Below are positions 8,550 through 28,689 of a stretch of 55,912 nucleotides of DNA, one piece after another (position 1 is the stretch's first letter; every line of letters starts with the position of its first letter). The stretch covers positions 1-55,912 of the forward strand of contig JAHEDY010000007.1 of assembly GCA_024640985.1 (NCBI GenBank). The letters are read 5' to 3'. Position numbers and translations under genes: made by a program. Under the pieces are notes generated by a model. That model was not told where the DNA came from. It searched no databases and saw only the letters and a list, made by a program, of their open reading frames with translations. The DNA comes from Gammaproteobacteria bacterium (GTDB taxonomy: Bacteria; Pseudomonadota; Gammaproteobacteria; Pseudomonadales; Litorivicinaceae).

Positions 8550-9497
8550 GTGGAAAAGAAAGTCCAATGGGTGACTGTGGATGAGTCAAAAGAAGGTCAA
8601 CGGCTGGATAATTTTTTATCAAATCAGCTGAAAGGTCTTCCTAAAGGTCGCATCTATAAAATGATTCGGACCGGTGAAGTACGCATTAATAAAGGTCGGT
8701 GCAAGCCCGATTCGCGGGTGTCTGCTGGCGATATTGTTCGGATTCCTCCGGTTGATCTCGCTCCAACAAAAGAAGCGATCGCACACCGTGGCATTCAGAT
8801 GAAATTATCCGATGCATTGCTGTATGAAGATGAAGATGTGTTGGTCTTGAACAAACCCTCAGGGTTGGCGGTGCATGGTGGATCAGGATTATCGACTGGT
8901 TTGATTGAACAATTGCGTCTGGCTCGACCGAATGAAAAATTTTTAGAATTGGTTCACCGGCTCGATCGAGAAACGAGTGGCTGCTTACTCGTGGCTCGTC
9001 GGCCGTCAGCGCTCAGGCGATTGCACCAACAACTGCGTGATCAGGATAAAGGACTGCAAAAACGTTACCTGGCTTTAGTTGCTGGAAAGTGGCCGCAGTA
9101 TTTAGTGGATGTCGAGGCGCCGCTTGAGAAGTTTGAGCGTGGTGGAGAGCGAATCGTCCAAGTGACCGAGCGAGGCAAGCCTTCGCACACCAGGATTCGG
9201 CCACTGGAAGTACTGGATGGGTGTACTCTAGTCGAGGCAGAACCTGTGACCGGACGCACCCATCAGATTCGCGTTCATGCCTCCTATTACAAGCATGCAG
9301 TATTAGGTGACACCAAATATCAGCACGATGACAGCCGAGATCAGTGGCGGCAGCGTGGCATCAACGGATTGTGTTTGCATAGTCGATCGATTGGATTTCA
9401 AGCCGCAACCGGCCACCAAGTGACAGTTGTTGCGCCGATCCCGAATCCAATGCATCGTTTTTTGGTCGACGCCGGCTGTGATCCGGACATTTATTAG
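8550..9497 (+). CDS. rluC: 23S rRNA pseudouridine synthase RluC
   Basis: RluA-family enzyme; RluC modifies U955, U2504 and U2580 (E. coli numbering) of 23S rRNA. The 315-residue product has an N-terminal S4 RNA-binding domain (about 12-70), then the catalytic motif HRLDRETSG with the nucleophilic Asp, and a GRTHQIRVH motif. The GTG at 8550 is chosen because GGAG lies seven bases upstream; no ATG fits the S4 N terminus. Its divergent position next to rne is the usual arrangement in gammaproteobacteria, which supports RluC over RluD. Confidence 0.92.
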   Translation: MEKKVQWVTVDESKEGQRLDNFLSNQLKGLPKGRIYKMIRTGEVRINKGRCKPDSRVSAGDIVRIPPVDLAPTKEAIAHRGIQMKLSDALLYEDEDVLVLNKPSGLAVHGGSGLSTGLIEQLRLARPNEKFLELVHRLDRETSGCLLVARRPSALRRLHQQLRDQDKGLQKRYLALVAGKWPQYLVDVEAPLEKFERGGERIVQVTERGKPSHTRIRPLEVLDGCTLVEAEPVTGRTHQIRVHASYYKHAVLGDTKYQHDDSRDQWRQRGINGLCLHSRSIGFQAATGHQVTVVAPIPNPMHRFLVDAGCDPDIY

Positions 9498-20244: not shown

Positions 20245-20652
20245 TCACTCTGGATGTTCGCAAAGCTCGAGCAACACGCCCTCGGTGTCTTTAGGGTGAA
20301 CAAAGGCGACCTTGGTTCCATGGGCCCCAGGGACCGGTGATTCATTGATCAGCGTGTAGCCTTGGTGTTTTAGTCGTTGGAGTTCGGCTTCAATATCAGT
20401 GACTGTAATCGCAAGCTGTTGGAGACCGCCTTTGCCTGCATTCTTCTCAATAAACTTAGCAATGGGGCTATCGGCTTCGGTGGCTGCAATCAATTCGATA
20501 CAAGATTCTCCGATCTGGAAAAATGCAGTTTCAACCTTTTGGGAATCCACGCGATCGCGGCCTTTGAGGGTAAAACCAAGGCCTTCATAGGTTTTAATGG
20601 CTGCCTCGATGTCAGTGACAGCAATCCCTACATGATCGATTTTATGCAACAT
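20245..20652 (-). CDS. Methylmalonyl-CoA epimerase-like VOC protein, metal ligand replaced
   Basis: A 135-residue VOC-fold protein whose closest pattern is methylmalonyl-CoA epimerase: IDHVGIAVTDIE at the start, DSPIAKFIEKN, and AHGTKVAFVHPKD with GVLLELCE at the end. H7 and E129 are in place as metal ligands. The strongly conserved GG-x-HH motif reads GGLQQ (Q78, Q79), so a metal-binding histidine is missing. The genes for MeaB, mutase and carboxylase lie just upstream on the same strand, which supports an epimerase role; it may use a different metal set or be altered in activity. Confidence 0.82.
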   Translation of the reverse strand: MLHKIDHVGIAVTDIEAAIKTYEGLGFTLKGRDRVDSQKVETAFFQIGESCIELIAATEADSPIAKFIEKNAGKGGLQQLAITVTDIEAELQRLKHQGYTLINESPVPGAHGTKVAFVHPKDTEGVLLELCEHPE

Positions 20653-20718: not shown

Positions 20719-21141
20719 ATGTTTCGGTCGATTTTAATTGATGATTTTATGACCAAAAATTTAGCCACGGCGACTCGAGAGATGGATCTGCTTGCGCTGG
20801 TGGATCTCTTATTGCGTCGTGGGATTTCTGGAACCCCTGTTGTGGACGAATCCGGCCATTTGATTGGAATGGTGTCGGAGCACGACTGTCTTAAAGCCAT
20901 TTTGGTCGGAACCTATCAAGGCGACGTTGGGGGCATCGTCGGCGATGTCATGACGACTCAAGTGGATACCATTCGGCTCGGGACCAGTATTGTAGAGGCA
21001 GCAAATCAAATGGTGTCCTCGGGTCGTCGTCGTTTGCCGGTCGTTGATCAGGAAAATCATTTGGTGGGACAGATCTCACGCACGGATCTTTTACGTGCGG
21101 TCCGTGCTTATGAAATTCCGGAAGAAGAACCGGCGCATTAA
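20719..21141 (+). CDS. CBS-domain pair protein
   Basis: A 140-residue stand-alone protein made of two CBS domains (about 8-62 and 75-130), with motifs GISGTPVVDESGHLIGMVSE and RRLPVVDQENHLVGQISRTD. CBS pairs bind adenine nucleotides or related ligands and regulate partner proteins. A good GGAGG site precedes the ATG. It is the only plus-strand gene inside the minus-strand propionate module, divergent from the epimerase-like gene and convergent with meaB, with overlapping stop codons. Partner unknown. Confidence 0.9.
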   Translation: MFRSILIDDFMTKNLATATREMDLLALVDLLLRRGISGTPVVDESGHLIGMVSEHDCLKAILVGTYQGDVGGIVGDVMTTQVDTIRLGTSIVEAANQMVSSGRRRLPVVDQENHLVGQISRTDLLRAVRAYEIPEEEPAH

Positions 21142-22127
21142 GATTTGAGCGCGTTTTCCAGAGGTTCAATGCAGGCCAGTGCGGCTTGAGGTGGCGCAAT
21201 CTCACCGGTTGCCACTCGTTGTTTTTGCGCCTGATAGAGCTCAGCCCAGGCAGCGTTAGTCTTTAGAAGCTCGGTGACACCGTCATTCAATAATCGTTCG
21301 AACCATTGACTGGCCTGTGCGGTTCGGCGAGCTGGAATGGCTTCGGATCCAGCTTCACAGTAGGCGACCATCCGTTCCCAAAGGGTATCGATGCCTCGCG
21401 GTTCGATTGAACTGACCGAGAGCACCTCGGGCGTCCAAAAGCCCTGATGATTCAAAAAACCCATGGCATTTTTGTAATGCACAACTGATTGGCTGGCGAG
21501 TCGTTCGGCGTCCCCGTCGGCTTTATTGACAACAATCAAATCGGCCAACTCCAAAATTCCTTTTTTGATCCCCTGTAGCTCATCACCGGCACCGGGTTGC
21601 ATCAGGACTAAAAAAAGATCGGTCATTGAGTGGACTTCATATTCGCTTTGTCCAACACCGACAGTTTCCACCAAGATGACATCAAAGCCCGCGGACTCAG
21701 CGACTAAGACGGCTTCTCGCGTTCGGTTGGCGACACCACCGAGCGAGCGGCCAGCCGGAGAGGGTCGGATAAACGCATGATCCTCACGCGAGAGCCGTTC
21801 CATGCGTGTTTTGTCACCCAAGATTGAACCGCCATGCAAGGGTGATGAGGGGTCAACGGCGAGAACACCAACACGCTTTCCAAGACCAATCAAAAACAGA
21901 CCAAAGGCTTCAATGAAGGTCGACTTGCCCACACCAGGAACGCCTGAAATACCGATTCTGAGACTTTTTCCACTGTGCGGAAGGCAACGCTCAAGAAGTG
22001 CAGCAGCCTGTTTTCGGTGTGTAGGGTGACTGGATTCGATCAGCGTAATGGCTTTGGCCAACGCGCGGCGCTGGCCTGTGCGGAGTGCTTGAAAGTCGAT
22101 CTCAGGCACCGGTATTCTCAATGGCAT
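21138..22127 (-). CDS. meaB: Methylmalonyl-CoA mutase-associated GTPase MeaB
   Basis: G-protein chaperone that protects B12-dependent methylmalonyl-CoA mutase and helps cofactor exchange. The product of about 329 residues has P-loop GVPGVGKST, the [11 protein letters not shown] motif, [10 protein letters not shown] and NKAD for guanine binding. The ATG at 22127 lies inside the end of the mutase gene (26-base overlap); a GTG at 22109 with an 8-base overlap is also possible. Direct linkage to the mutase confirms the role. Confidence 0.93.
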
Positions 22128-24237
22128 CGAGAACCGATTTGGCACAGGCTGGGATCTTGGTTCCGGGACCAAAAATCGCGGCAACACCTTGCTCGTAGAG
22201 CGCTTGATAATCCTTTCTTGGAATCACACCACCGGCGAAGACGACGATATCGTCAGCACCTTCTTTGGTGAGAGCCGCTTTGAGCTCTGGAATCAGTGTC
22301 AGGTGACCAGCTGCCAGTGAGCTCACACCGATTGCGTGAACATCATTCTCAATGGCTTGACGCGCGACTTCTTCAGGCGTTGAGAACATCGGGCTTAAAT
22401 CGACATCAAATCCCAAGTCTGCAAAGGCGGTTGCGACAACTTTAGCGCCACGGTCGTGACCATCTTGCCCCATTTTCGCCACTAAAATTCGTGGTCTGCG
22501 TCCTTGATTGGACTCAAACTCAGCAATTCGCGTAGTGAGTGCCTGCCAATCTGCATCATCCTTAAAATGGCTACCGTACACGCCTGAGACACTCCGGTGG
22601 GTTGCTTGGAATCGTTTAAATACAACCTCCATTGCATCAGAGATTTCACCAACTGTACACCGCGCGCGTGTGGCTTCGACAGCTAAGCCTAGAAGGTTAC
22701 CAGGACCTCCAGTGGCACAGTCAGTAATGGCTTTGAGGCAGGCGTCAGCGCGCGCTTGATCACGTGTCCCTTTGATCTGCTGTAAGCGTTCAATCTGTGC
22801 GTCTCGCACTTTCTCGTTGTCGATTGAGAGAACGTCGATGTCCTCTTCAGATCCTTCCGGCAGTGTGTATTTGTTGACGCCAACGATGACATCTTCACCG
22901 CGGTCAATTCGCGCCTGTTTGTTGGTGGCTGATTCCTCGATGCGGAGCTTTGGTAGGCCGGCTTCGATCGCCTTTGCCATGCCACCTTCTTTTTCCACCT
23001 CAGCGATCAATTCACGAGCGCGTTCGGCCAATTCATGGGTCAGCGACTCCATCAGGTAAGAACCACCCCAAGGATCGACCACCTGGCGGATGCCCGTTTC
23101 TTCTTGCAGAATCAGCTGGGTATTCCGTGCGATGCGGGCACTGAACTCAGTAGGCAGGGCAATCGCTTCATCAAACGAGTTGGTGTGCAAGGATTGAGTT
23201 CCGCCAAACACAGCGGCCATTGCCTCAATGGTCGTGCGAACGACATTGTTGTACGGATCTTGTTCGGTCAATGACCATCCTGAGGTCTGACAATGGGTTC
23301 GCAAAACGGTTGATCGTTCGGATTTTGGATTGAATTCGTTGACGATTTCGTTCCACAAGAGTCGCGCCGCTCGGAGCTTCGCGATTTCCATGTAGAAGTT
23401 CATTCCAATGCCAAAGAAAAAGGACAAACGGGGGGCAAACTGGTCGATATCGAGTCCTGCCGCCAAGGCAGTCCGAATGTATTCTTTGCCGTCGGCCAGC
23501 GTATAGGCCAATTCGAGGGCGGCATCGGCTCCGGCTTCCTGAATATGGTAGCCAGAGATGGAAATGGTGTTGAATTTCGGCATGTGTTCAGAACAGTAGC
23601 CGATGATGTCACCGATGATCCGCATCGAGGGTTCAGGCGGATAAATGTAGGTGTTACGCACCATAAACTCTTTCAGGATGTCGTTCTGGATCGTTCCTGA
23701 GAGTTGATCTTGGCTGACACCTTGTTCCTCGGCAGCGACGATATAACCCGCGAGGACTGGCAGGACTGCACCGTTCATGGTCATGGAGACCGAGACCTGG
23801 TCAAGCGGAATGCCATCAAACAGGATCTTCATATCTTCCACTGAATCGATCGCCACACCAGCCTTTCCAACATCACCTGAGACACGAGGATGATCGGAGT
23901 CATACCCGCGGTGGGTGGCTAAATCGAAGGCAACAGAAACGCCTTGGCCGCCGGCTGCTAGGGCTTTGCGATAGAACGCATTGGATTCTTCAGCGGTGGA
24001 GAATCCGGCATATTGACGGATGGTCCAGGGGCGACCGGCATACATCGTCGCCTTGGGGCCGCGCATGAAAGGTGCCATTCCAGGCAGAGTGGTCCGTTGA
24101 TCCAGATGTTGAACGTCCTCCTCAGTATAGAGAATTTTCAGTCCAATCCCTTCGGGTGTGAACCAAGTCATCTCATCCGGTGACAGTCCTTTGGATTCTT
24201 TGGAAACCAGTGCTTCCCATTGCTTTTTGTCTGTCAT
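22102..24237 (-). CDS. scpA: Methylmalonyl-CoA mutase (catalytic and B12 domains fused)
   Basis: Interconverts (R)-methylmalonyl-CoA and succinyl-CoA with adenosylcobalamin. At 711 residues it is the single-chain type: TIM-barrel N-terminal two-thirds (with [14 protein letters not shown] and the [13 protein letters not shown] region), then a Rossmann B12 domain with [11 protein letters not shown] (lower axial His), GVSSLAAGH and FAGGVIP. The ATG at 24237 (MTDKKQW) has GAGG six bases upstream and lies seven bases after the carboxylase alpha gene. No B12 riboswitch fits into the gap. Confidence 0.95.
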
Positions 24238-24244
24238 GCTGTCC

Positions 24245-27022
24245 TCACAACGTACTGAGCTGTTCGACGGTATAAGAAAGACGGGCTTGAGCAACCATGT
24301 CTTCGTCAATTTCTTCGGCCACTTCATCAGGCTCGATGCGATATAACGGCTGCCCTTTTTTCACAATGACCCCATCACTTTGTTCGATCAGCGCTTCAGT
24401 CACGGTCCCAGAAAATTCAGCATACACTTTATTGAACATCTTCATGACTTCGATAATGTAGAGAGGATCGCCGACGTCAAAGTGGGTTCCAACTTCCAAG
24501 AAGTGCGGTGCGCCCGGTGTTTCTTGGGTGTAGAACATCCCGCCTGACATCGCAACGATCTCGTTGGCGGAGGCCACTGGTGGCGGTACGAGGATTTTAC
24601 GTGCGTGTTCGGTCAGTTCTGGATCTTTGAATCGCTCAGGGATGACGACCGTGAGATCGGCTTCGACGGTGAGCTCATCAAAGCCCACCGCGAGCGCTGA
24701 TTGAGCAACTACCGCTAAGAGCTCAAGGCCTGCTTGGAAGCCTTGATGTGCGGCTTGAATGTCATTCCAAAGCCTTTGATCAATCCCATCGGGTGGGGAT
24801 TTCTGGTTTAAGACCTGTTGCCATTGATTCCAATCTTTCGGACCAAGTTTGTCGTTAAGATCCTGATAGAAACTTAATCCTTGCTCGAGAATGGTTTGAT
24901 CATGATCCCAGATCACTTCAAGGGCGGAAGCGCCCTCAACAAAGTCCATATTGAGGTAGTGATACAGTTCCGCTAACACTTGAAATGGATTCGATTGCCA
25001 GTTGAATCGACCTGCATTCATTGTCCAATCGGATCGAACCTTTGAAATCCATCCAATCAATCGGTGGGGATTGGTCATCAAACAGGTCAAAGGCCGGATA
25101 ATCAGCGTTTGCTTTCTGGCAAAGATCTCAGCAGATCCGGATTGATCTGCGAGGTACTGGAAGCCAGCATGCAAATCAATTTTTTGAGCCTGTTCAAAGA
25201 GTAATCCGGTCAAAGTGAGGTACGGTTGGATAAAGGCTGTGGTTGATTTGGCGTAGGGATTTTTGGCCAAGAACCAGTGAACCAGTCCGTAGTGAAATTC
25301 GAGATTGGTTTGCACATCCTGACCATCGATCGTCATTCTGCGCAGCACCTCAGCCATCCGCTCATAACTGACCACTCGATCATCGCCAACGGTTAACAGC
25401 AAGGCGACGTTTGAATCGTAAGCGCCTGCGAGGGTGTATTTCATGAAGGCGCCGGTATCTGGGTTTTTGACACAGATCCCTTGGTCATCACGAATTTCAC
25501 CGGCGATTGGTGAAGACCAGTGCTCGATGACACCTCCTGCGTGCGGCGCCAGTCCTGCGTTTGTGGCGTTCAGTCGCGCCTCAACGGAGGTGTTGACGCG
25601 TGGGACGCGAGTGGGTTTTGGAAGCTTGTGTTTGTGCCAGGCGATAATGGCCATGGCTTCAACCAATGAGTTCACGACGAAGGCTTCCGACGGATCGTTG
25701 GGATTTTCAAAGCGCAGCCCGTAGCAGAGTTCGCTAACGCGGTGTTCAACCTGAATGCGGGTATTCATCTCCATGAAAAAGTGTTGGTCGGCATCGACAA
25801 TACATTCAAAGGTCGATACCGAATCCAGTCCTACCGCTGAGCCGAAGCGTGTGGCTTCGTCTTCCATGCGCTCGAGGATGGCGAGATCCATTGTCAGGGC
25901 TCGTTGTTGCGCCGGATGTTGTTCCGAAGCATCAATCGCACATTGTAAGCTCTCCACCGTGGTTGAGACTTCCAGTAGTTTTTGTTCGTGCATTTGCAAC
26001 GAGCAGTCGCGTCCACCGAGCGTGAGACACCAGTCGCCATTACCGATGACTTGGATTTCTTGGTGACGTGTGGTTTCGATATTCAGCTCGATCAATACGT
26101 TTTTGTTGTCGCCACGACCAGTGGCTTTGACCTCGTTCAACACTTCACGCAAGAGCGCAGGCACTTTGGACGCTGCGTCTTTGACCTGCGTATTGTGCTC
26201 GCCGGGGTAGTCCTTTGGCGCCACCAGGATGCGTTGACCTTTTCCGCCACCGCCACCAATGGCTTTCAAGCGGATCCGATTCTTCGGTTGTTGGTCAAAC
26301 AATGTGGCAACTTCAATCTCGGCTTGTGCGGCGATCTCGTCGATGCTGATGACATCAACAAGCGCTTGATAGCTTGCTGCCAAAAGGGCTTCGGCTTGAT
26401 CGGCATCCGATGCGCCTTCAGGAATCTCCAGTTGGTGAGCTTTGGCGATGACATCAAGGCCACCTTCGCGGCTGGCTTTGGCAAGTAGCGTTCGGACTGT
26501 GAGATCGTCGACACCAGGGACCACTGAAACATCAGCGGCAAGCGCTGTGCGTTTGGCTTCGTCTTTCAGTCCGGCTTGGCGAACGGTACGAGAGCAAGGA
26601 CCAATAAAGGTTAATCCTGATTCCTCGATTGCGCGCACCAGACTCTCGTCTTCGGCCATGAAGCCGTAGCCTGCAAAGATCGAATTATGACCGTTGTCTT
26701 TTGCGATTTGGATGATTTGTTGGATCCGTTGATCGCGCTCCTCTTTGCTGGCGCCGGTATAATCTGGCACTCGGTGGATGCGGGTCGGATCCGAGATCAA
26801 ACGTAATTCGGGGGCCAGAGCATTTTGATAAATGATGGAATCTTTTTCTGACAACAGAATGCTGTATTTGGCGCCCATCTCGGTGAAGACATCCATGACC
26901 TCTTTACGGATAGGTCCTCGGCAAATGATCAAACAGTCAATGTCTTCACAAGAAAATTGCTGAATCCAGGACGCGTTCGACTGGGATAAGCGACGGTTTT
27001 GGTGAATATAATCGTGGCTCAT
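24245..27022 (-). CDS. Long-form acyl-CoA carboxylase alpha subunit (biotin carboxylase + BCCP)
   Basis: A 925-residue biotin enzyme, clearly longer than usual propionyl-CoA carboxylase alpha (about 650-700). Order: biotin carboxylase N-domain with GYGF; ATP-grasp with [18 protein letters not shown] and [10 protein letters not shown]; a region of about 250 residues without a recognised motif; C-terminal biotinyl domain with EVMKMF (biotin on about K861). Differences from the norm: the N-terminal NRGEIA motif reads CRGPIR, and about 50 extra residues precede the glycine loop. It starts in the pccB stop (TAATG). Substrate is most likely propionyl-CoA from context, but other acyl-CoAs cannot be excluded. 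Confidence 0.85.
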
Positions 27023-28689
27023 TAGTGAAACTCCCTCTGGATCGCAGTCATCGGTTTCGGCTGGTAGGCCTTGATGTAACGGATGAAATTTTCACCGAGA
27101 GTGTGTCGCAAATCCTGGGGCATCACGATTTGGCTGATCGAACCCAACGACAGAGCCTCTTTCGGGTTCATCAGCTCAGCTTCATAGCGCTGACTTAATT
27201 GCATTTCCTGTTCTTTGAGCCACTGTGTTGCTTCTGCATCACCTTTGGCTGCGCGGGTTTTCGCTTCAAGGCGCAGCGCCTTCAGTTCGTCTTTATAGAC
27301 AAATTCTTTACCCGCGGGACCCATGACTGCCAAGCGAGTGGTTGGTAGAGCGAAGACCATATCGGCGCCGAGTTTGTAGTTGTTGAATGCCGCATAAGCG
27401 CCACCAAACGCATTTCGGATAATTAACAGGAAGCGAGGAACGCGAAGATCGATGATGGCATCGAGCATGGCGCGGCCGGCCTGAACAATACCTCGACTTT
27501 CTTGATCGCGGCCAGGCAAGAAACCGGTCGTGTCTTCCATAAATAACATTGGGATGTTGTAGAGATTGCAGAACCGGATGAACCGGGCGTTTTTGAGTGC
27601 TGCATCAATATCAATTTGCCCTGAGGCAACTGCTGAATTGTTTGCACAGAAGCCGATGACGTGGCCTGCAATGCGCCCAAAGGCGCAGATCGTATTCCGG
27701 GCCCGATTTGGCTGGAACTCGTAGAAATCCCCGTGGTCACAAATTTGTTGAATCATGATGGTGACATCAAGCGGGGTATTAAAACCGCTTGGCGAATTGA
27801 ACGCGCGTTTCAAGAGAATATCTGCGTCCCAGGTCTTTCGTGAAATTGGGTCCGATGTCGGTTGAAACGGCGCCATGGTTTCATTGTTTGATGGCAGAAA
27901 GCGCAATAGTCGACGGACTTTGCGGATCGCTTGAACCTCATCATCGACCACGAAGTCGGTGACGCCAGTCTGGCTGTGCACACGAGGGCCTCCCAGTTCA
28001 TCGGGTGTCACCTCTTCGCCGAGCACACTTTTGATGACAGACGGGCCTGTCAAACCGAAGAAGGTGTCATTGGGTTGGATGACAAAAGAGCCTTGGCGCG
28101 GTAAATACGAACCTCCACCGGCGTTGAATCCAAACATGCACATGATGGACGGAACACGACCTGAAATCTCACGGAGCGCGCGGAAGGCTTCAGCATAGCC
28201 GTCGAGTCCCCCAACCCCAGCTGGGACATAGGCGCCCGCTGAGTCATTAAACCCAACGACTGGGACACCTAGCTTTCCGGCGGTTTCGAAGAGCTGTGCG
28301 AGTTTTGAACCGTTAGTTGCATCCATCGATCCCGCACGAACGGTAAAATCGTGTCCATAGATCGCAACGTCTCGGCCTCCGACTTTCGCCAGTGCGGTGA
28401 CGAGACCGGCACCGTCGAGGTTTGGTCCCCAGTTTTGAAAGAGAATCGTGGGTTCTTCATCCACCAATAACCGAATTCGTTCCCACACGGTCATCCGATT
28501 TTTTTGGTGCTGACGTTCGATCGCAGCAACAGGAGCACCTTGAGGGCGTTGCTGGAGTTCCCAGCCAGCTTTCAGTGCTTCTTCATAAATGCCCGGTTTG
28601 CGGGCAATTTCACCAGGGATCTCAAATCGCTTTTCCTCGGGTGCGTGGAAAGGATTGGTGAGATGGGCGCTTTTGGCTAATCCAACCAT
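27022..28689 (-). CDS. pccB: Acyl-CoA (propionyl-CoA) carboxylase beta subunit
   Basis: Carboxyltransferase of 555 residues that moves CO2 from biotin to an acyl-CoA. Two crotonase-fold halves are visible: the first with [14 protein letters not shown] and GGGSYLPRQ, the second with [12 protein letters not shown] and [12 protein letters not shown]. It is first in the minus-strand operon with the alpha subunit, mutase and MeaB, suggesting propionyl-CoA as substrate. AAGGA lies nine bases before the ATG. A perfect palindrome 58 bases upstream may control the operon. Confidence 0.9.

Follow-up and report, generated by a model that had tools for sequence, protein, structure and literature searches.

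A long biotin carboxylase subunit with a predicted helical domain in place of BT, probable partner of a propionyl-CoA carboxyltransferase in Litorivicinaceae and other bacteria

The DNA analyzed in this study is a stretch of 55,912 nucleotides, which we call the window. The open reading frame at 24245..27022 is located on the minus strand, is open throughout, and encodes 925 amino acids; the plus strand across 24245-27022 contains many stops. The product is a long alpha subunit that carries both biotin carboxylase (BC) and biotin carrier domains. The gene before it, at 27022..28689 on the minus strand, encodes a partner carboxyltransferase (CT), a pccB-like protein of 555 amino acids (Carboxyl_trans, 363.7 bits), and its stop codon TAA shares one base with the ATG of the alpha gene (TAATG). 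The gene after it, at 22102..24237 on the minus strand, encodes methylmalonyl-CoA mutase (NF006944, 1266.3 bits against a cutoff of 876). The mutase reading frame opens at 24327, and its likely ATG is at 24237, seven bases past the alpha stop, so that the alpha gene precedes the mutase gene, as had been noted earlier. The gene of MeaB, the GTPase of the mutase, lies at 21138..22187 (minus strand, start codon uncertain; NF006958, 425.9 bits, cutoff 329), and that of methylmalonyl-CoA epimerase at 20245..20652 (minus strand; TIGR03081, 144.1 bits, cutoff 114.95). The order on the minus strand is thus CT, alpha, mutase, MeaB and then epimerase. That is, since all five genes are on this strand, the genes for the conversion of propionyl-CoA to succinyl-CoA share one direction. 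A CBS-domain protein of 140 amino acids is encoded on the plus strand at 20719-21141, between the MeaB and epimerase genes.

The genome assembly of the window is 98.85% complete. It contains two biotin carboxylases, AccC and the long alpha, and three CT-family genes, namely the partner CT and two frames of 327 and 287 amino acids, which are of AccA/AccD size. From these numbers, the long alpha is the only candidate for a propionyl-CoA carboxylase in this genome.

The BC domain comprises residues 25-603 (25214..26950, minus strand), as delimited by superposition on E. coli BC and by the end point of hhalign. The pLDDT of the full-length model was 86.9, and residues 25-603 were superposed on E. 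coli BC (4hr7_F) by VIA-align with a Z of 38.3 and an rmsd of 3.8 over 417 residues. The domain, with its inserts, is about 579 residues long, compared with about 445 in E. coli. In the Pfam analysis, Biotin_carb_N and CPSase_L_D2 were above cutoff, and Biotin_carb_C reached 32.3 bits, just below its 32.4. Against the NCBIfam equivalogs for AccC, PC and urea carboxylase, the best score of alpha was 184.6 bits and those of three relatives were 169.4-181.7 bits, compared with a cutoff of 965.

The ATP-grasp core motif (23 residues) is present in alpha. As to the active site, 14 of the 16 positions checked are kept in the alignment, namely those equivalent to AccC K116, K159, E201, H209, Q233, K238, E276, E288, N290, R292, Q294, V295, E296 and R338; AccC K202 is replaced by Leu and H236 by Glu. 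We presume that these AccC residues have the catalytic roles usually ascribed to them. At residues 34-39 (26906..26923, minus strand), CRGPIR stands where NRGEIA is expected, and most ordinary biotin carboxylases compared have NRGEIA at this position. Among the best 80 of the 501 relatives described below, CRGPIR was found in 80 and EVMKMFN, the motif around the biotinyl lysine, in 79, which indicates that these unusual motifs are not due to chance. The one exception for EVMKMFN is presumably L016, whose alpha gene is cut at the contig end. The most distant relative examined, L100 (47-48% identity), has GRGPVR instead of CRGPIR.

The main insert of the BC domain, at about residues 196-247 (26282..26437, minus strand), forms two helices in the model and precedes the glycine-rich loop GGGGGKG at residues 256-262 (26237..26257, minus strand). 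From VPG to the lysine of the glycine loop there are 82 residues, compared with 25 in E. coli AccC; the approximately 57 extra residues align mostly to 196-247. Further inserts consist of 16 residues before DNKNVLIE, 20 after QKLLE, 15 near NPNDPSEAF and 9 near NPDTGAF, and one more, of about 12 residues, lies beside an 11-residue motif. The mean identity to distant homologues was 33% in the 196-247 insert and 92% in residues 248-266; taken together, the inserts and the linker described below showed 33-44%, compared with 55-92% in the rest of BC and the carrier. The preliminary description of this DNA had recorded the ATP-grasp core, EVMKMF near K861, CRGPIR in place of NRGEIA and about 50 extra residues before the glycine-rich loop, and our alignments agree with it on all of these features.

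Several positions of the presumed BC dimer surface are changed in alpha: R16 to Glu, R19 to Asp, F363 to Gly and E408 to Arg; E23 and R366 are kept. The E. coli biotin carboxylase mutants R16E, E23R and F363A have PDB entries, judging from the titles. In two-subunit pyruvate carboxylase, R19E and E23R, in the numbering of that enzyme, are described as dimer-interface mutants (PMC5059739), and we have taken these positions as equivalent to those compared here. According to the part of that paper available to us, the R19E and E23R mutants still assembled into a holoenzyme whose activity was near that of the wild type (PMC5059739). Therefore, the dimer-surface changes alone do not show a loss of the dimer.

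The biotin carrier domain, residues 819-897 (24332..24568, minus strand), has AccB-like spacing. The lysine that would be biotinylated is K861 in EVMKMF (24440..24442, minus strand), which is invariant in 55 aligned sequences. Biotin_lipoyl matched alpha with 37.9 bits (cutoff 22.1), and the carrier models that best fit residues 819-897 were of the AccB type, PRK07051 with 56.5 bits and TIGR00531 with 50.8 bits, both under cutoff. The stretch from FY to VG has the same length as that of E. coli AccB and exceeds that of ordinary alphas, by 7 residues in the case of L132, an ordinary alpha whose CT has the MCC-like motif GGANLP; we take the longer stretch to be the 'thumb' of AccB. Most ordinary alphas compared have EAMKM where the long alpha has EVMKMFN.

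Between BC and the carrier lies a linker domain, at about residues 604-815 (24578..25213, minus strand), for which we found no family or fold match. The full-length model has helices from about 604 to 815, and residues 585-818, modelled alone with 55 sequences, gave 11 helices and two four-residue strands with a pLDDT of 91.7. In Pfam, the linker of the window had no match, no family was matched by more than one of the 55 linkers, and the BT families matched none of the 55 at an E of 1. The stray matches of single linkers (11 families, one of the 55 linkers each, including botulinum HA-17 at an E of 0.0027) were set aside as chance. The profile of the linker had a sole match among the PDB sequences, at an E of 0.68, and the best NCBIfam stretches on alpha end by 601 or begin at 817 or later. 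Against the PDB folds, the best Foldseek E was 0.82 and the best VIA-align Z was 3.4 (rmsd 5.4, 123 residues). We take these values to mean that the search gave no fold match, which falls short of proving a new fold.

To these results we add the search for BT. Neither PCC_BT nor BT_MCC_alpha was found in the window alpha by Pfam. The hhalign alignment to ordinary alphas follows BC up to residue 601 and then ends, and profile-profile comparison of the linker alone gave probabilities of 0.7% and 0.3%. Two PCC-type alphas served as controls, and PCC_BT was matched in both, with 107 and 112 bits (cutoff 23.5); in their loci the PCC-type beta gene is just upstream and the mutase gene is next. Among ten other alphas, three had no match to BT_MCC_alpha; the remaining seven matched it at an E of 0.01 or better, and in four of these the score was above the cutoff. 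From the absence of a Pfam BT, the low hhalign probabilities, the predicted helices and the positive PCC-type controls, we conclude that BT is absent from the long alpha and that a predicted all-helical domain stands in its place. The central region, in which the preliminary description had recognized no motif, was thus not aligned to the BT of PCC or MCC by Pfam, by hhalign or in the helical model. The BT of GCC is described as a long helix in an eight-stranded barrel that mediates the alpha-beta contact; that of PCC is similar, and that of P. aeruginosa MCC has one strand fewer (PMC4673880, PMC10148081, available portions). A survey of biotin carboxylases, as far as its available text goes, notes that in its XCC group BC and BCCP are separated by a region without a known function, which resembles BT only slightly and for which a helix is predicted (PMC3199775).

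Relatives of the long gene were collected by a scan of 84,980 species genomes, which gave 501 stretches with a relative, maybe including ordinary BCs; the best 80 were kept. In these 80, the match covers at least 831 of the 925 residues with 54.7-96.2% identity, and the 78 genes with a stop within the contig encode 918-981 amino acids, with start codons chosen by script. The records include Litoricola/Litorivicinus, Parahaliea, Haliea, Seongchinamella, Simiduia, Dasania, gamma proteobacterium HdN1 and Geomonas.

The long gene is patchy overall and near-universal within some groups. In the family of the window, Litorivicinaceae, it was found in 21 of 25 genomes; 23 had any match at 1e-10, two of these at the AccC level only. 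When the genomes of this family at least 90% complete and with at most 5% contamination were counted, the gene was present in 12 of 12. It was also found in 79 of 81 genomes of the Parahaliea family (L020) and in 132 of 146 genomes of the Geomonas class (L082), and in 10 of 198 in the Geomonas phylum. In even draws, the only genome with the gene was the source genome itself, both in the window's class (1/114, E 1e-50) and in its phylum (1/398, E 1e-30). Few candidates were scored per genome, as few as 2 in the window's phylum, 4 in the Geomonas phylum and 6 in the Geomonas class, and these genome counts may therefore be low.

The BC of alpha is at most 32.2% identical to each of 31 other biotin carboxylases (446 columns), whereas E. 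coli AccC shares 40-71% identity with the remaining 30 of the set. In a maximum-likelihood tree of 52 BCs, 21 long ones were divided from the 31 others with an ultrafast bootstrap of 100 (FastTree support 1.0), and the dividing branch was about 2.5 substitutions per site. These supports were read from unrooted trees and split tables, from which eukaryotic ACC was left out. PCC-type alphas were included in the comparison (L175, L176, L177), and the long alphas did not group with them. The preliminary description had suggested a separate carboxylase class and proposed phylogeny as a check; the distinct clade, with insertions common to its aligned members, supports this. Subunit contacts or regulation peculiar to the class, which it also put forward, are conjectural. 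Homologues that match alpha in length and carry its changes are numerous, but they belong to the long class and are not PCC alphas.

The gene neighbourhood was compared among the best 80 relatives. In all 80, alpha is preceded on the same strand by a CT gene at a distance of no more than 300 bp. Among the 69 relatives with at least 2.5 kb of downstream room, a mutase follows alpha on the same strand in 58, and MeaB is encoded at some position of the locus in 54. Homologues of the epimerase were found in 64 of the 80 loci; nine others have a homologue of the YiiD_C thioesterase, three of which were checked by Pfam. The 11 relatives without a downstream mutase are these nine thioesterase loci, L058 and L046. 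In L058, mutase and MeaB are upstream, and in L046 neither was seen with the queries used. Seven further stretches of the Geomonas phylum have CT beside the long gene (7/7) and, in four of the seven, a mutase within the stretch; in Geomonas L168 and genome L169 the CT gene is followed by those of long BC, mutase and epimerase, in this order. CT adjoins alpha even in L099 and L100, the most distant genes examined. Their open frames of 1705 and 1499 amino acids might suggest a BC-CT fusion, which was rejected, as the CT genes are in another frame; we ascribe the long frames to the few stops in GC-rich DNA. A mutase-family match was present in all 10 genomes checked among those with the long gene, but also in 8 of 14 controls, which makes this a weak test; the best such match of genome G145 had only 401.5 bits, in a frame of 1111 amino acids.

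Just after the alpha gene, YiiD_C stands in place of epimerase and mutase in L017, L022, L027, L029, L030, L039, L040, L044 and L051. The thioesterase gene could be a sign that this HdN1-like group uses a different acyl-CoA substrate. In L058, a cyclic-nucleotide-binding domain protein is encoded after the alpha gene (8919-9425).

In the PDB, the sequences that best match the CT are those of PCC beta subunits, first 1vrg, then 1x0u, the PccB entries 3ibb and 3iav, and others. We take 1vrg to be from T. maritima and the PccB entries 3ibb and 3iav to be from S. coelicolor. A tree was built from 34 CTs. Those that belong to long genes, 17 in number with four duplicate copies among them, formed one clade with a support of 1.0, beside the PCC/MmdA-type CTs L138 and L139. 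The motif NDSAGA[YF][VI]PAG in the N-terminal half, where L138 and L139 have DSGGARIQEG, was found in all 75 CTs longer than 500 amino acids, and a second motif of 12 residues in 65 of them. Ala433 of the CT corresponds to position 422 of S. coelicolor PccB, which differs between 3ibb and 3iav. Among 78 CTs examined, Ala was at this position in all 76 that have the surrounding motif; of the two others, L007 is a fragment and L080 had no pattern match. We presume that this position selects the substrate and that Asp is the wild-type residue of PccB there. Since the CTs have Ala and not this Asp, acetyl- or butyryl-CoA may be substrates as well. In the window CT, two motifs of 11 residues each and Ala433 have diverged from PCC-type CTs, as alpha did.

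We compared the long alpha with known carboxylases. The PCC alphas of Shinella, Mesorhizobium and human likewise have a BC-linker-BCCP chain with CT on a second chain and the same catalytic core. PCC-type loci also share the gene order CT-alpha-mutase with the long-alpha loci: the order is beta-alpha-mutase in Shinella, and Mesorhizobium differs only in that a GNAT gene separates beta from alpha. In contrast to PCC alpha, to which it is 31.0-31.7% identical over BC, the long alpha has no BT, about six inserts, CRGPIR, an AccB-like carrier with EVMKMFN, and a CT with different motifs. It resembles AccC and AccB in its BC fold and carrier spacing; unlike them it is one chain with a helical linker, it is 29.4% identical to E. 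coli AccC, its presumed dimer-interface residues are changed, and its partner CT is nearest to PCC/MmdA-type CTs. LCC-type single-chain and actinobacterial multidomain carboxylases also have a large chain with BC and BCCP, but here the CT is a separate ORF (27022-28689) and the long BC is elsewhere in the tree (examples L112, L119, L137).

The acyl-CoA carboxylase pairs GSU3299-GSU3300 and Gmet_3248-3249 of Geobacter have CT first and BC second, as in the long class, and probably belong to it. For GSU3300 this is deduced from the gene order and from the 132 long genes in the Geomonas class. We take GSU3302 to be the mutase. In the available part of PMC13274346, GSU3299, GSU3300 and GSU3302 are in a ten-gene set that scored higher on propionate, and the pair is given as the acyl-CoA carboxylase of the methylmalonyl-CoA route on the basis of annotation, homology and transcriptomics. 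PMC2825233 (in part) names GSU3299 a 'carboxyl transferase domain protein' and lists it with the most highly conserved proteins of Geobacter, and the available part of PMC2700814 makes no mention of Gmet_3248 or Gmet_3249. The proposal for G. bemidjiensis differs, naming the transcarboxylase-like Gbem_0335, 51% identical to a 12S subunit (PMC2996986, in part); thus, the long gene does not underlie every Geobacter pathway proposal. In the open-licence literature, judged from titles and the openings of abstracts, we found no description of the long class or its architecture, and no enzyme assay of a member. As far as this literature shows, the function was partly anticipated in print, and the class and architecture were not.

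Taken together, these results make it probable that the long alpha and its CT form a two-subunit propionyl-CoA carboxylase of a separate class, in which the predicted helical domain replaces BT. The BC fold with its catalytic residues, the biotinyl domain on the same chain and the separate CT are the features of a two-subunit acyl-CoA carboxylase, and the neighbourhood of the propionyl-CoA to succinyl-CoA pathway is that of a PCC alpha. If the known mechanism applies, as the conserved active site suggests, BC would carboxylate the biotin on K861 with ATP and bicarbonate, and the carrier domain would then swing to the CT. Alpha and the adjacent CT would in this way convert propionyl-CoA to methylmalonyl-CoA for the neighbouring epimerase, mutase and MeaB. 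The domain of about 210 residues, predicted to be all helical, would sit where other alphas have the helix-in-barrel of BT. We put the chance at slightly better than even that this predicted domain docks and spaces alpha on the co-diverged CT.

The helical domain could instead be a regulatory or sensor module, with the alpha-beta contact elsewhere, for example at the BC inserts, a reading compatible with carboxylase function. The inserts and linker change faster than the rest, as surface or contact regions would, and the presumed dimer-interface residues at R16, R19 and F363 are changed. However, the segment after BC is the main alpha-beta contact in PCC, MCC, GCC and two-subunit PC (PMC4673880, PMC10148081, PMC5059739, available portions), and we regard the sensor reading as rather unlikely.

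Another possibility concerns the substrate. The enzyme might act on other or a broader range of substrates, such as acetyl-CoA or longer acyl-CoA, with propionyl-CoA as one of several. The Ala at the presumed specificity position in 76 of the 78 CTs and the thioesterase neighbour in the HdN1-like group (9 of the best 80 relatives) are consistent with this. Yet mutase, epimerase and MeaB adjoin in most members with room, and the organism of the window has AccC and genes of AccA/AccD size for malonyl-CoA, so that we think this improbable.

Finally, the view that the protein is an ordinary PCC/MCC alpha with a BT diverged past recognition, for which one may cite the same operon position and overall domain order and the ten ordinary alphas, of which three also lack a BT match in Pfam and three more are below its cutoff, was rejected as very improbable on profile, profile-profile and predicted secondary structure grounds, because the confident linker model is helical with only two strands of at least three residues, hhalign of the linker finds nothing, the linker has about 210 residues compared with 126 in the PCC_BT profile, and the BC falls outside all 31 ordinary BCs compared.

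Returning to the two-subunit propionyl-CoA carboxylase, we hold a wider reading of it to be evenly balanced. That is, the long genes would constitute a separate class, near-universal in the Parahaliea family and the Geomonas class. Its alpha would dock through a helical domain of a new kind, the dimer surface of BC would be rearranged and the CT would have co-evolved, so that the holoenzyme would differ in architecture and stoichiometry from the alpha6beta6 of PCC and MCC. The architecture of biotin carboxylases depends on how BC is tethered to CT, and the two-subunit examples in the papers cited use the helix-in-barrel; a helical domain in a widespread class would, if true, be a second solution for tethering. 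The long gene would also provide a propionyl-CoA carboxylase call where bacterial pathway maps lack one. The Geobacter pair, if functional, would fill the KEGG gaps for G. sulfurreducens, and the oxidation of propionate by Geobacter is of importance for anaerobic digestion and for systems that produce current (PMC13274346, in part).

Two further observations were made on the long genes themselves. The assemblies of G829 and G719 have the gene split into two adjacent parts, with internal stops in G719, which may be an assembly error. Genomes G145, G840, G857 and G924 each contain two full-length copies of the long gene.
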